A DNA stretch of 38,913 bases, from positions 4,672,415 through 4,711,327 of the forward strand of contig NZ_MQWD01000001.1 of assembly GCF_002283365.1 (NCBI RefSeq), written 5' to 3'. The DNA comes from Rubrivirga marina (lineage in GTDB: Bacteria; Bacteroidota; Rhodothermia; Rhodothermales; Rubricoccaceae). A program made the position numbers and the translations under genes. The notes beneath the pieces were generated by a model, which saw only the letters and a program-made list of their open reading frames with translations, was not told where the DNA came from and did no database searches. Of the stretch, positions 19,076 through 24,019 are shown one piece after another (positions within the stretch are counted from its first letter, which is position 1; every line of letters starts with the position of its first letter).

Positions 19076-19339
19076 CTACATCGTGTCAGCGGGCTCGTCG
19101 ACCGGCGGCGTCGCGTCCTCGATCGGCGCGTTGAAGAGGTCGTCGCCGGTCTCCGCCGAGTCGGCCATGGCCTCGTCAGACGACTGGCCGTCGTCACGGG
19201 ACAGGGGGTCCACATCCATCGGCGTGTCGGGGTCGGGGTCCGGGAGCTCCTGCGTTGCGTCAGGCGCGGGGTCGACTTGGTCGGGCCCGCAGGCGGCAAG
19301 CGGGAGCGAGAGCGCGAAGAGAAGGGCGAAAAAGCGCAT
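19076..19339 (-). CDS. Small acidic lipoprotein
   Basis: An 87-residue lipoprotein with a 16-residue leader and a lipobox (P-L-A-A-C17), followed by a strongly acidic, low-complexity mature region (PDPDPDTPMDVDP, MADSAETGDD). No folded domain is evident. The leader ALSLPLAAC is almost the same as those of the genes at 19466 and 20505, suggesting copied signal sequences. Codon-position GC and the lipobox support a real gene, but the function is unknown. Confidence 0.72.
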   Translation of the reverse strand: MRFFALLFALSLPLAACGPDQVDPAPDATQELPDPDPDTPMDVDPLSRDDGQSSDEAMADSAETGDDLFNAPIEDATPPVDEPADTM

Positions 19340-19465
19340 GGCATGGCGGGTGACGTGGGGGGCGCCAACGGGCCGGGCTCCAGGCGGGATCCACGGGGAG
19401 CCCCTGAACGAGCGCGGGGCGGCCCCCCGGAAGGGACCGCCCCGCGACGGCGGATGCCGGACGGC

Positions 19466-19777
19466 TTACATGCCGTCGTCGTCCGTGGCCTCCTCGACGT
19501 CACCGGCCGCCTCGTTGACGGCGTCCTCGGTGGCCTCGCCAGCGTTGTCGAGGGCCGCCTCGGTCTCGGCGGCGGCCTCGTCGGCCTCGGCCTCGATGGC
19601 GTCGCCGGCGGCCTCGGCCTCCATGGCGGCGTCGTCGGCCGCGGCGTCGAGGTCGTCGCCGATCTGCGCGGCGTCGGCCTCGATGGCGTCGTCGGTCTCG
19701 TAGGTGTCGACGTCGTCACCGCAAGCGGCGAGCGGGAGCGACAGAGCGAGCGCGAAGAGCGCGATGTTCTTGAACAT
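19466..19777 (-). CDS. Acidic alanine-rich helical lipoprotein
   Basis: A 103-residue lipoprotein (lipobox P-L-A-A-C19) whose mature part is almost only Ala, Glu and Asp, with repeated AIEAEADEAAAE-type units that predict one long amphipathic helix or coiled coil. It starts CGDDVDTYETDD; acidic residues right after the lipid-bearing Cys resemble the surface-export signals described for Bacteroidota lipoproteins, which is only an inference here. Function is unknown. The gap that follows upstream (19778-19938) contains no gene, but has an inverted repeat, GTCCA (19901-19905) and TGGAC (19912-19916). Confidence 0.78.
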   Translation of the reverse strand: MFKNIALFALALSLPLAACGDDVDTYETDDAIEADAAQIGDDLDAAADDAAMEAEAAGDAIEAEADEAAAETEAALDNAGEATEDAVNEAAGDVEEATDDDGM

Positions 19778-19938
19778 GATGGTATTGGGTAGGGTGAAGG
19801 TGTCCCGGGAGCGATCACCGGGGCCCGGCGGGGTGAGGAGCCGAGCGGGTCCTAGAACGGAAGGTCCACCATTGTGTTGCCCACGGCACTAGACAACCCT
19901 GTCCAATCTTCTGGACGACCATCAACATTCACCGTCTC

Positions 19939-20415
19939 TCATCCGTCGGCGCCGGCCGAATCGGCGGCGGTCGTGTCGGGCGCGAGGCGCTGCCCACTCC
20001 GCCGCAGCACGTCGCCAAGCGCGGCCAGTGGCGTCCCCGCCTCGGCGAGCGCTCCGGTCTGTTCGCCGACGTCGCGGAGCGTCCGCCCGATGCCCGGACC
20101 GTCGAGCGGGCTCGACTGAAGCTGGTTGCGAAGCGTCGTGAGGTCGTCCCGGAGCTCGGTCGCCCCATCCGCCGAGACGGTGTCGAGGCGGGCGATCCAG
20201 AGGTCGATCGTCTGGATGGCGACGGACGGCGAGACGGCCAGGAGGTCGCCGCTTACGAGGTCGAGCGTGCTCTCCGGGGAGACGGCCCGGACCATCGCCG
20301 TGTCGGGGAGCGACGCGTCGGGGTCGGAGGGCGCGACACGGGCGCCGTCGGAGGACGCGTCTGGACCGCAGGCGGACACGGCGAGGACGAGGGCGAGCAG
20401 GAGCGAAGGGCGCAT
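19939..20415 (-). CDS. Lipoprotein, tandem paralogue A
   Basis: A 158-residue lipoprotein (V-S-A-C16). After an acidic linker, residues about 55-145 form a helical domain: AVSPSVAIQTIDLWIARLD, LTTLRNQLQSSPLDGPGIG and TLRDVGEQTG. The gene at 20505 encodes the same domain and the same total length. ATG 20415 is chosen over ATG 20442, because the latter lies directly on the T-run of the upstream terminator and would place nine extra residues before the signal peptide. The family is not one I can name. With the terminator only 27 bases upstream, expression needs readthrough or a promoter inside the neighbouring gene. Confidence 0.82.
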   Translation of the reverse strand: MRPSLLLALVLAVSACGPDASSDGARVAPSDPDASLPDTAMVRAVSPESTLDLVSGDLLAVSPSVAIQTIDLWIARLDTVSADGATELRDDLTTLRNQLQSSPLDGPGIGRTLRDVGEQTGALAEAGTPLAALGDVLRRSGQRLAPDTTAADSAGADG

Positions 20416-20442
20416 GGGACGGGAAAGAGAAGCGGGGCGCAT

Positions 20443-20486
20443 AAAAAAAGGCCGCCGACCGGACCCCGCGGGGTTGGTCGGCGGCC
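20443..20486 (-). terminator. Strong rho-independent terminator between the two paralogues
   Basis: On the minus strand, GGCCGCCGACC (20486-20476) pairs with GGTCGGCGGCC (20460-20450) over 11 perfect base pairs and is followed by seven T (20449-20443). The 15-base loop holds another palindrome, CCCCGCGGGG. It lies 18 bases after the stop at 20505. Confidence 0.93.
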
Positions 20487-20504
20487 GAATCGGACCGGTG
20501 GGGC

Positions 20505-20981
20505 CTACATGCCCGCGAGGGAGTTGCCGGCGTCGGTCAGCGTGGTGCCGAGCGTCTCGAGGGCGCCATCACCCGCGGCGGCGGCCGTCGTGGCCTGGCC
20601 GAGGCTCTGGAGCGTCGCCCCGACCGCGGCGCCGTCGATCGGCGATGCCTGGAGCTGGCTACGGAGCGTCTCGAGATCGGCGACGACCGGCGCGAAGTCC
20701 GGGTTGCCCTCGAGGCGGTCGATCCACGCGTCGATGTTGCTGACGGCAGCGGCGGGCGCGAGGCTCGTGAGGCCTCCGGCCTCGGTGACAGCGTCGACGG
20801 TGGCCTGGGGCGTCACCTCAGGCGCGTCGTCCATCGTGGTGTCGTCCATCATCGGCTCGTCGACTATGGGGTCGGGGGTCTCGACGATGGTCGTGTCGGT
20901 CTCGGCGACCTCGGGCTCAGACTCGCAGGCCGCGAGAGGCAAGGCGAGGGCGAGAAGGAAAAGGGAGAGGCGGGTAGTCAT
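20505..20981 (-). CDS. Lipoprotein, tandem paralogue B
   Basis: A 158-residue lipoprotein (P-L-A-A-C19), the same length as the neighbour at 19939. An acidic Asp/Thr/Met-rich linker (20-58) leads to a helical domain (about 68-153) with VSNIDAWIDRLEG, LETLRSQLQASPIDGAAVG and TLQSLGQAT, which aligns without large gaps to paralogue A. The shared pattern is ID-x-WI-x-RL, LR-x-QLQ-x-SP-x-DG and G-x-TL. It could be a helical bundle; I know no named family. A strong terminator follows. Confidence 0.87.
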   Translation of the reverse strand: MTTRLSLFLLALALPLAACESEPEVAETDTTIVETPDPIVDEPMMDDTTMDDAPEVTPQATVDAVTEAGGLTSLAPAAAVSNIDAWIDRLEGNPDFAPVVADLETLRSQLQASPIDGAAVGATLQSLGQATTAAAAGDGALETLGTTLTDAGNSLAGM

Positions 20982-22535: not shown

Positions 22536-23330
22536 ATGATCGTCCGCACCGACGCCGTCGTCCTCCACGCCTTCGACTACGGCGAGACCAGCCGGATCGT
22601 CCGCCTCCTGACACGGCCGCACGGCGTGATCGGCGTGATCGCGCGCGGCGCGCGCCGGCCGACGAGCACGTTCGGCTCGACGCTCCAGCCGATGTCGTAT
22701 CTCCAGGCCGTGTACTACCACCGGGCAGGGCGGGGCCTCCAGACCTTGAAGGAGACGTCGCACGTGGTTCGGTTCAGGCGGCTCACGTCGGACATCGACC
22801 GGGTCACGCTCGGGCTCCGCGTGCTGGAGGTCACGCGGGCGGTCATCGAGGAGGGCGAGGCGCATCCCCTCGCGCTCGACCTCGTCGTCCGCACGCTCGA
22901 GCACCTCGACGAGGCCGAGGCCAACGCCGCCAACGCGGTCCCGTGGTTCCAGCTCCACCTGGCGGCCCTCCTCGGGTTCGCGCCCGACGTCCGACGGGAG
23001 GACGTCGAGGCCCTCGGCGACGACGGCGGGCGGCTCCTGCTCCAGAGCGGGACCGTCCTCCCCGCCGGCGCCGAGGCGAGCGCGATCGGCCTGGCGGCCT
23101 CGGCCGACGGGGTCCCGGCGAGCCGGGCCGCACTCCGGGCGTTCGCGATCCTCGCGCGGACTGGGCTCGACACGGCCGGTCGGATGCGGCTCGCACCCGA
23201 CGTCCGCCGCGAGGTCGAGGGCCTCGTCGACGCGTTCGCCCGCGTCCACTTCGAGACGACGTACCCCGAGCGCGTCCGCGGGGTGGCCGACCAACTCGAC
23301 GCCGCGTTGGGGCGGAACGAGGATATGTGA
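22536..23330 (+). CDS. recO: DNA repair protein RecO
   Basis: RecO anneals SSB-coated DNA and, with RecR, loads RecA. The 264-residue protein has the N-terminal OB fold (VRTDAVVLHAFDYGETSRIVRLLT, GVIARGARRPTSTFGSTLQP, about 3-52) and a helical C-terminal part. Members often carry a four-Cys zinc site in the C-terminal domain; this one has no cysteine at all, so the site is absent. Length is normal to slightly long. The start ATG 22536 gives the usual M-I-V-R-T opening. recR, its partner, is at 1108. Confidence 0.96.
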   Translation: MIVRTDAVVLHAFDYGETSRIVRLLTRPHGVIGVIARGARRPTSTFGSTLQPMSYLQAVYYHRAGRGLQTLKETSHVVRFRRLTSDIDRVTLGLRVLEVTRAVIEEGEAHPLALDLVVRTLEHLDEAEANAANAVPWFQLHLAALLGFAPDVRREDVEALGDDGGRLLLQSGTVLPAGAEASAIGLAASADGVPASRAALRAFAILARTGLDTAGRMRLAPDVRREVEGLVDAFARVHFETTYPERVRGVADQLDAALGRNEDM

Positions 23331-23401: not shown

Positions 23402-23432
23402 TTGTGTGTGATGGGCGTCTGCCCTACTTTGG
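23402..23432 (+). promoter_or_regulatory. Promoter of the LexA-like gene, with possible operator
   Basis: TTGTGT (23402-23407) and TACTTTGG (23425-23432) are 17 bases apart; the latter is close to the Bacteroidota TAnnTTTG element. Transcription would begin about 14 bases before the ATG at 23453. CCCATC (23387-23392) and GATGGG (23410-23415) form an inverted repeat that straddles the TTG element and could be an operator. Confidence 0.6.
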
Positions 23433-23452: not shown

Positions 23453-24019
23453 ATGAGCCGCCGCCAGCTGACTCAGAAGCAGCACGCCTTCCTCGAGTAC
23501 CTCCGCGACCACGTCGACCAGCACAAGGTCTGGCCGACGTACCGCGAGATCGCCGACCACTTCGAGTACCGCTCGCCGAACTCGGTCACGCAGAACCTCC
23601 AGGCCCTCTCGCGAAAGGGGTTCCTCCAGCGCGGCCGCAACGGCTACGCCCTCGTCGAGCAGACGGCCCGCGACGGCTCGATCCGCGTGCGCGGCGCGCT
23701 CCGAGGAGGCCGCATCGAACCGGCCCCCTCCGATCGGCTCTCGCTGACGTCGCTCTTTCCGGACCTCAGCGGCTTCCACGCGCTCGAACTCGATGCCGGG
23801 ACCGACCGGACCGGAGAGCTCGGCGACGCGCGTTACGTGTTCGTGGCGGAGGGCGACGTGGCGGAGGGCGACACGGCCGTCGTCATCGACGGCGGGCGGC
23901 TGTCGATCGGGCTCGCGGCCGACCTCACCCCGGACGCCGAGGTCCTCGGGCGCTACGCCGGGCACGCCGGGCCCTACGGCATCGTCCGGGCGGACGCCAC
24001 GACGAGCGCCAGCGCCTGA
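23453..24019 (+). CDS. LexA-like repressor lacking the self-cleavage machinery
   Basis: A 188-residue protein. The N-terminal winged helix matches LexA (LTQKQHAFLEYLRDH, WPTYREIADHFEYRSPNSVT and NLQALSRKGFLQR, about 6-60). The C-terminal part aligns loosely to the LexA protease fold (GALRGGRIEP, SLFPDLSGFHALEL, VAEGDVAEGDTAVV, VLGRYAG). However, the Ala-Gly cleavage pair is replaced (LRGG), the GDSM serine motif is replaced by DAGTDR, and there is no lysine after residue 55, so a Ser-Lys dyad is impossible. It may be a repressor that does not respond to RecA. ATG 23453 is chosen because the upstream in-frame ATG 23411 lies between the promoter boxes. Confidence 0.8.
   Translation: MSRRQLTQKQHAFLEYLRDHVDQHKVWPTYREIADHFEYRSPNSVTQNLQALSRKGFLQRGRNGYALVEQTARDGSIRVRGALRGGRIEPAPSDRLSLTSLFPDLSGFHALELDAGTDRTGELGDARYVFVAEGDVAEGDTAVVIDGGRLSIGLAADLTPDAEVLGRYAGHAGPYGIVRADATTSASA

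Follow-up and report, generated by a model that had tools for sequence, protein, structure and literature searches.

The window, that is the whole 38,913-nucleotide stretch of Rubrivirga marina DNA analysed here, carries on its forward strand a gene for a LexA-like protein of 188 amino acids, preceded by recO and by a candidate operator and promoter (Table 1). The gap between the end of recO (23330) and the start of the gene (23453) is 122 bases, as the first-pass annotation of this DNA had given it, and the identity of RecO is confirmed by Pfam. Elsewhere in the window, at 19076–20981 on the minus strand, four adjacent short lipoprotein-like open reading frames with LAAC or SAC boxes are present, possibly related to one another. 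The genome of the window (G000) is 97.0% complete. The protein is present in seven of the nine genomes of its family (f1, Rubricoccaceae, Rhodothermota), G000 included, and its counterpart is missing from G002 and G003.

Table 1. Features of the recO-lexA region, in coordinates of the window
Feature	Position	Strand	Basis or detail
recO, conserved upstream neighbour	22536..23330	+	Pfam RecO_N 84.2 bits, RecO_C 64.9 bits
Candidate LexA-type operator CTGTGCGGAGTTGTGTG, TGTG direct repeat, its end 44 bases upstream of the start codon	23392..23408	+	
Possible Bacteroidota-type promoter: TTG 23402, TACTTTG 23425-23431, 23 bases apart	23402..23431	+	read from sequence
Very probable lexA orthologue, predicted to lack the self-cleavage machinery, 188 aa	23453..24019	+	ATG at 23453, stop at 24019
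Winged-helix DNA-binding domain, residues 1-68, recognition helix SPNSVTQNL	23453..23656	+	Pfam
Predicted degenerate S24 domain, residues 69-188	23657..24016	+	profile comparison, identity, alignment
Gly85-Gly86 at the canonical scissile Ala-Gly position	23705..23710	+	alignment columns
Thr117 at the canonical catalytic Ser position	23801..23803	+	alignment columns
Gly153 at the canonical catalytic Lys position	23909..23911	+	alignment columns

The protein was aligned within a set of 79 distinct LexA-like sequences drawn from its order. This set is a subset, taken from among the matches listed in a search that detected PF01726 in 111 of 114 genomes; it comprises canonical LexA proteins (group A, 28 rows), proteins encoded beside mraZ (group B, 37 rows), proteins like the one described here (group C, 10 rows, from families f1 and f9), three rows of a type termed X and one odd row (L079).

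The DNA-binding half is LexA-like, as had been recognized from the letters alone: PF01726 matches residues 4–60, scoring 55.7 bits where the cut-off is 23.7. A CI-type helix-turn-helix was not found at the N terminus, where Pfam gives PF01726 and no HTH_3 match. Identity to the canonical rows in this domain is 0.60 for the G000 protein and 0.61 for the C rows, compared with 0.59 among the canonical rows themselves, and the recognition helix SPNSVTQNL is shared by 25 of the 28 canonical rows and all 10 C rows. The dN/dS of this part, from simple Nei-Gojobori counts on five pairs, is 0–0.17. In a structural model built from a four-row alignment, pLDDT per block of ten is 63–87 across residues 1–60. 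A sequence search of the PDB gave nine LexA sequences, eight of which match the DNA-binding half alone; 3k2z (Thermotoga LexA, as named in the Foldseek output) matches residues 5–104.

The C-terminal half has lost the residues of self-cleavage. The columns of A84, G85, S119 and K156 of Escherichia coli LexA hold Ala, Gly, Ser and Lys in all 28 canonical rows; in the G000 protein they hold G85, G86, T117 and G153, and its translation has no lysine beyond residue 55. The first-pass annotation, which had noted that the cleavage site, the GDSM serine and any lysine after residue 55 are missing, is therefore right for G000; lysine loss is not a trait of the family. Across the C rows, the four columns keep Ala in 0/10, Gly in 9/10, Ser in 0/10 and Lys in 2/10 (G004 and G005), and the Ser column is occupied by T, N, V, A, E or L. 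Since two rows retain the lysine and none the alanine or serine, the cleavage site and the serine seem to have been lost earlier than the lysine within f1.

The NCBIfam lexA model (TIGR00498) matches residues 4–87 alone, with 49.2 bits against a cut-off of 110.95, and Pfam gave no PF00717 match in the 188-aa protein up to E 1; two of the nine other C rows were covered by Pfam. The S24 ancestry of the C-terminal half is indicated by a profile comparison (98.6%, E 5e-16) in which the seven f1 rows were set against the C-terminal domains of 26 canonical rows; column-shuffled controls reached at most 0.46% (20 shuffles), and two of the 28 A rows, for which the script located no point of division, were omitted. 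Identity to the canonical rows has fallen to 0.25 for the G000 protein and 0.29 for the C rows, compared with 0.69 among canonical rows. By these comparisons, the C-terminal half is predicted to be a degenerate S24 domain, so that the S24 derivation implied in the first pass is upheld at the level of sequence; the fold model, with pLDDT of 31–59 per block past residue 70, is too poor to decide. The ten best Foldseek hits are all LexA (E 7e-6 to 5e-4, 186–217 columns, rmsd 13–17 Å) and carry no weight for this poorly modelled half. Its dN/dS, likewise from five pairs, is 0.12–0.44, all values in both halves being below 0.5. Because this points to selection that is relaxed yet purifying, the S24 remnant would be more than the product of mere rot.

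In a 57-row tree, built from all 28 A rows, 15 of the 37 B rows, the 10 C and 3 X rows and E. coli LexA, group C is resolved as one clade (100/97) within a clade of A plus C (100/99). Group A without C is monophyletic in 0% of 200 bootstrap trees; the exact place of C inside A is weak (84/84). Group B forms a separate clade (100/99), and the tree tool issued a long-branch warning for X and E. coli. RecO is encoded within the fetched region of 21 of 26 canonical LexA loci and seven of the eight C loci fetched; in the remaining one, the C gene is at the end of its contig. According to the coordinates, recO is upstream and in the same direction in most A and C regions that contain it; at L069 the gap is about 2 kb, and L080 has a different orientation. 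At L075 (G107) and L077 (G105), a pair of adjacent canonical LexA genes is present with recO nearby. Nesting within A, together with adjacency to recO, indicates that group C represents the canonical LexA of the order by descent and place. It is very probable that the 188-aa protein is an orthologue of LexA which does not cleave itself and in which DNA binding is conserved.

The first-pass annotation had offered, as one option, a paralogue that modulates the SOS regulon, and had proposed a search of the genome for a canonical LexA. None was found in G000. Its three PF01726 matches are the 188-aa protein, a 229-aa protein encoded on the mraZ side and an HrcA-like protein (L003); the latter was rejected as a third LexA, being HrcA-like by the reading of its ORF and scoring below the cut-off. 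The mraZ-side protein, which has Gly for Ser and Arg for Lys, was the only candidate for a canonical copy, so a paralogue of a canonical LexA is set aside: the protein is assigned as the orthologue of the order's canonical LexA, no canonical LexA stands beside it and no LexA box was found at recA (see below). Seven S24 (PF00717) places are present in G000, comprising the mraZ-side protein and six UmuD-like places (L114, L120, L128, L132, L135, and L136), two of them broken; one of the six has an in-frame TAG and one is a remnant fused into a longer open frame. The four whole UmuD-like proteins have an S24 match and no HTH in Pfam, and an S24 repressor with an HTH taking over in G000 was rejected on this ground. 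Thus, PF01726 and PF00717 searches, together with Pfam analysis of the S24 proteins, revealed in G000 neither a cleavable DNA-binding LexA nor any other DNA-binding protein whose Ser-Lys pair is intact; its relatives differ.

Type X proteins with Ser and Lys intact are encoded in G002, G003, G004 (two), G006, G041, and G055, and three of these genomes, G004, G006, and G041, combine such a protein with a non-cleavable LexA. Because relatives carry type X, the lack of any cleavable LexA is a statement about G000 and not a rule of the family. The type X loci (L116, L117, L124, L133, L134, L108, and L098) have IPAGP and the intact Ser-Lys pair; the two of G004 lie on contigs C14 and C15, and GAGGTGTAAACTGAC is found in three type X promoters. 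Possibly these genes are mobile.

The mraZ-side protein of G000 (L051, G000:C1:762293) is encoded divergently from mraZ, an arrangement seen in all 20 fetched regions (4–12 kb) of its family. All 37 rows have Gly in place of the Ser and Arg in place of the Lys. Two copies of a GTGAAAATnATTTCAC-like palindrome (≤4 mismatches) occur in 21 of the 23 promoters scored, and within f1 copies with ≤2 mismatches were found at that gene only, bar one site in G002, in six of nine genomes. Across the order, proteins of this kind may regulate the cell-division cluster without being cleavable.

The candidate operator of the 188-aa protein overlaps the upstream box of the promoter; the assignment of 23402–23431 as a possible promoter follows the Bacteroidota-type consensus. 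The repeat is identical in G007 and differs by one base in G006, and an exact match to it occurs in G000, G007, and G006 at the own promoter alone in each genome. The promoter with a possible operator suggested in the first pass is retained in part: the inverted repeat CCCATC (23387)/GATGGG (23410) is present in the window and was rejected as the operator, its arms being kept in neither G007 nor G006, whereas the direct repeat between the arms is kept in both. Canonical lexA promoters of the order likewise contain a TGTG direct repeat, e.g., ACTGTGTGGCCTATGTGT in G043, and in five of the ten A promoters scored no more than one of 200 shuffles is as good. For group C, the best match has one mismatch in G000, G007, G006, and G005, with 3, 1, 1, and 0 of 200 shuffles as good, respectively. 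It is marginal in G004 (9 of 200), weak in G042 (10) and G040 (13) and unconvincing in G041 (35) and G008 (43); the G001 gene lies at a contig end, so that no promoter is readable. Half-site spacing varies between relatives, and start codons, set by script for all promoter work, are possibly off by some codons.

With ≤2 mismatches to the operator allowed, the four genomes of the genus gave the own promoter in three and one additional site in G000, which has two mismatches and is located, by reading, inside a KsgA-like coding sequence. No regulon past the own promoter was found in these four genomes with one strict pattern. Similarly, one tight pattern for canonical LexA gave exact matches at lexA alone in four of six genomes and recovered no wider regulon there; its two-mismatch totals are near the reversed control in G027, G043, G026, and G029 (21 vs. 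15 in G029) and clearly exceed it in G066 and G061 only.

At recA of G000 (L141), no LexA box was found, the best match having 3 mismatches with 89 of 150 shuffles as good. The same promoter contains TGACACnnGGnTGTCACC, which fits another element, with the consensus TGACrCnnnGnTGTCACC, at 2 mismatches (0 of 300 shuffles as good). Among recA promoters scored in 30 genomes, this element is present at ≤3 mismatches in 21, G000 included, and is located about 10 bases before a TATCCT-like -10 box in most of those shown. A LexA-type repeat (≤1 mismatch) is present in eight (G005, G030, G061, G066, G074, G081, G089, and G112), with 0–18 of 150 shuffles as good, and is weak in G061, G089, and G112 (18, 9, and 7 of 150). 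In G005, the LexA-type repeat and the other element overlap.

Sites of the recA element led to a WYL regulator (L252, G000:C1:1500280), whose matches to WYL, WCX, HTH_11 and HTH_PafC give it an HTH + WYL + WCX architecture. An orthologue is encoded in 24 of the 30 genomes, with 67–100% identity over the query. The element is present in 21 of the 24 recA promoters from genomes with the orthologue and in none of the six without it at ≤3 mismatches (Fisher P 1.4e-4), in 23/24 vs. 2/6 at 4 mismatches (P 0.0026) and in 16/24 vs. 0/6 at 2 mismatches; these P values are too small, since the relatives do not count as independent, with perhaps three or four losses among them, and the consensus and the 3-mismatch threshold were picked after viewing these very promoters. 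The three genomes missed at this threshold of 3 are G002, where a look-alike shortened by one base can be seen, and G089 and G107, in which the best fit has four mismatches. A shortened look-alike is present in G003, which lacks the WYL gene and is 88% complete. The promoter of the WYL gene itself has the element (≤3 mismatches) at 10 of 11 f1 and f9 loci and 1 of 12 others scored, a count that excludes G030 (L279) and distant paralogues in G061 and G066, which gave no start. Where LexA cleavage was lost, in f1 and f9, the WYL gene thus appears to control itself.

Across whole genomes, the element shows no enrichment: nine genomes yielded 114 matches with ≤3 mismatches, compared with 122 for the reversed pattern (25 vs. 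11 in G000, 8 vs. 18 in G001, 2 vs. 11 in G002, and 1 vs. 11 in G003). Thirteen of 30 element loci were chosen by eye; six have recR, a GyrB/ParE-type gene, DUF5131, BLUF or WYL (twice) downstream, two or three have unnamed ORFs, and the others have no ORF in reach. The BLUF blue-light sensor gene (L216, G000:C1:2123097) has a recA-type element upstream with 2 mismatches. By eye, umuD promoters contain part of the recA element only.

The features described are best explained by a non-cleavable LexA that was released from SOS duty and kept as an autoregulated DNA-binding protein, a reading that we consider probable; that it acts as a dimeric autorepressor is also likely, by a hair less so. By sequence, the cleavage site and the nucleophile are gone from the S24 domain, along with the lysine in this genus, and RecA would be unable to make the protein cleave itself. 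It would then be a stable dimeric repressor on a TGTG-type direct repeat, bound at its own promoter and few other places, and the S24 remnant, judging from LexA in general, would now be used for dimerisation.

The remnant could instead still sense a signal, through a ligand, a modification or regulated proteolysis in place of self-cleavage. Purifying selection on the C-terminal domain (dN/dS 0.12–0.44) is what such a role would leave, but dimerisation alone could account for the constraint. Near the end of the protein is LGRYAGHAGPYG, at a place where the canonical rows of the alignment have LGRYVGH or similar. The motif GRYxGHAGPYG is invariant across the four rows of alignment A1; on the other side, its GRYxGH portion goes back to canonical LexA, the remainder is altered in G005 and no new conserved pocket was identified. 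A replacement of this kind has been suggested for Synechocystis LexA, in which neither the Ala-Gly site nor the serine is present and phosphorylation is described as changing under salt stress (PMC7567884). We regard sensing by the remnant as unlikely. A decaying gene, at an early step towards full loss of LexA and with no present function, is more improbable still. Family f11 could represent the end of such a path, as each of its seven genomes has one PF01726 match, and the six that were read are of the mraZ-side type; G002 and G003 of f1 are without the protein, and in G004 the reading frame extends to 428 aa. Against decay stand dN/dS of 0–0.17 in the DNA-binding and 0.12–0.44 in the C-terminal part, the presence of the gene in seven of nine f1 genomes, the intact recognition helix and the promoter repeat kept in some relatives.

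A recognition helix identical to that of 25 of the 28 canonical rows would also suit a protein that still modulates the SOS regulon by blocking operators shared with another LexA. Against this, no cleavable LexA was found in G000, recA has no LexA box by our search, the one pattern searched gave no further good site, and the mraZ-side promoter has a quite different palindrome. We regard this reading as very unlikely.

In two families, control of the damage response may have been handed over by RecA-LexA, the successor being a WYL regulator of PafBC type that acts at the recA element; this is put forward tentatively, and we would give it somewhat less than an even chance. In this weaker part of the scheme, recA came under another element (TGACrCnnnGnTGTCACC), which would have freed LexA for its role; the likely binder of the element would be the PafBC-like WYL/WCX regulator, in whose own f1 and f9 promoters the element also occurs. 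LexA would then have been stripped of its protease and retained as a DNA-binding protein. Genomes of the order would then display successive stages: recA with a LexA box where the WYL gene is absent, both together, the WYL element only with LexA intact, the WYL element with a non-cleavable LexA and finally the loss of LexA.

Among known systems, canonical LexA (PF01726 + PF00717, TIGR00498) shares with the 188-aa protein the winged helix, the S24-derived C terminus, the repeat in its own promoter and the place after recO; the 188-aa protein differs in lacking the Ala-Gly, the Ser and the Lys, in scoring below the TIGR00498 cut-off and in having no PF00717 match. Non-cleavable LexA is already known, since LexA of Synechocystis sp. 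PCC 6803 is described as having neither an Ala-Gly site nor a catalytic serine, and non-SOS targets have been suggested for it (PMC7567884); the protein considered here shares both losses, belongs to a separate lineage and has lost the lysine as well. The non-canonical LexA proteins of Bacteroidetes, a related phylum, are also unusual SOS-type S24 repressors, otherwise nearly the reverse of the 188-aa protein: according to the source, they have phage-repressor-type N termini and keep the Ala-Gly and the Ser-Lys pair (PMC8565304). In Balneolaeota, a neighbouring phylum, LexA is reported to have a direct-repeat operator, TTACACATATTTTWTACATA, and a regulon that includes recA (PMC7739468); the direct repeat is a point of likeness, whereas no such box was found at recA of G000.

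PafBC and DriD are WYL-domain activators described for LexA-independent damage responses and acting at recA (PMC6789036; PMC11804915; PMC5656591). At recA here, TGTCACC-about 10 nt-TATCCT is similar to the motif reported for mycobacteria, tTGTCRgtg-8 nt-TannnT, and the G000 regulator has WYL, WCX and HTH_PafC matches. It differs in that one WYL gene was found here, with no PafB-PafC pair, and in that the element is near-palindromic. No paper on LexA of Rubrivirga, or of Rhodothermus and Salinibacter, was found among the open-licence papers searched, and no report of PafBC/DriD-type control of recA in this phylum was found in the titles and abstracts listed from them.

A lineage that keeps the DNA-binding half of LexA fully constrained after self-cleavage has been lost allows one to ask what purpose LexA serves without SOS. 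If the link to the WYL regulator is true, it would represent a natural replacement of one damage sensor by another, with intermediates in living relatives, and would extend PafBC/DriD-type control of recA to another phylum.
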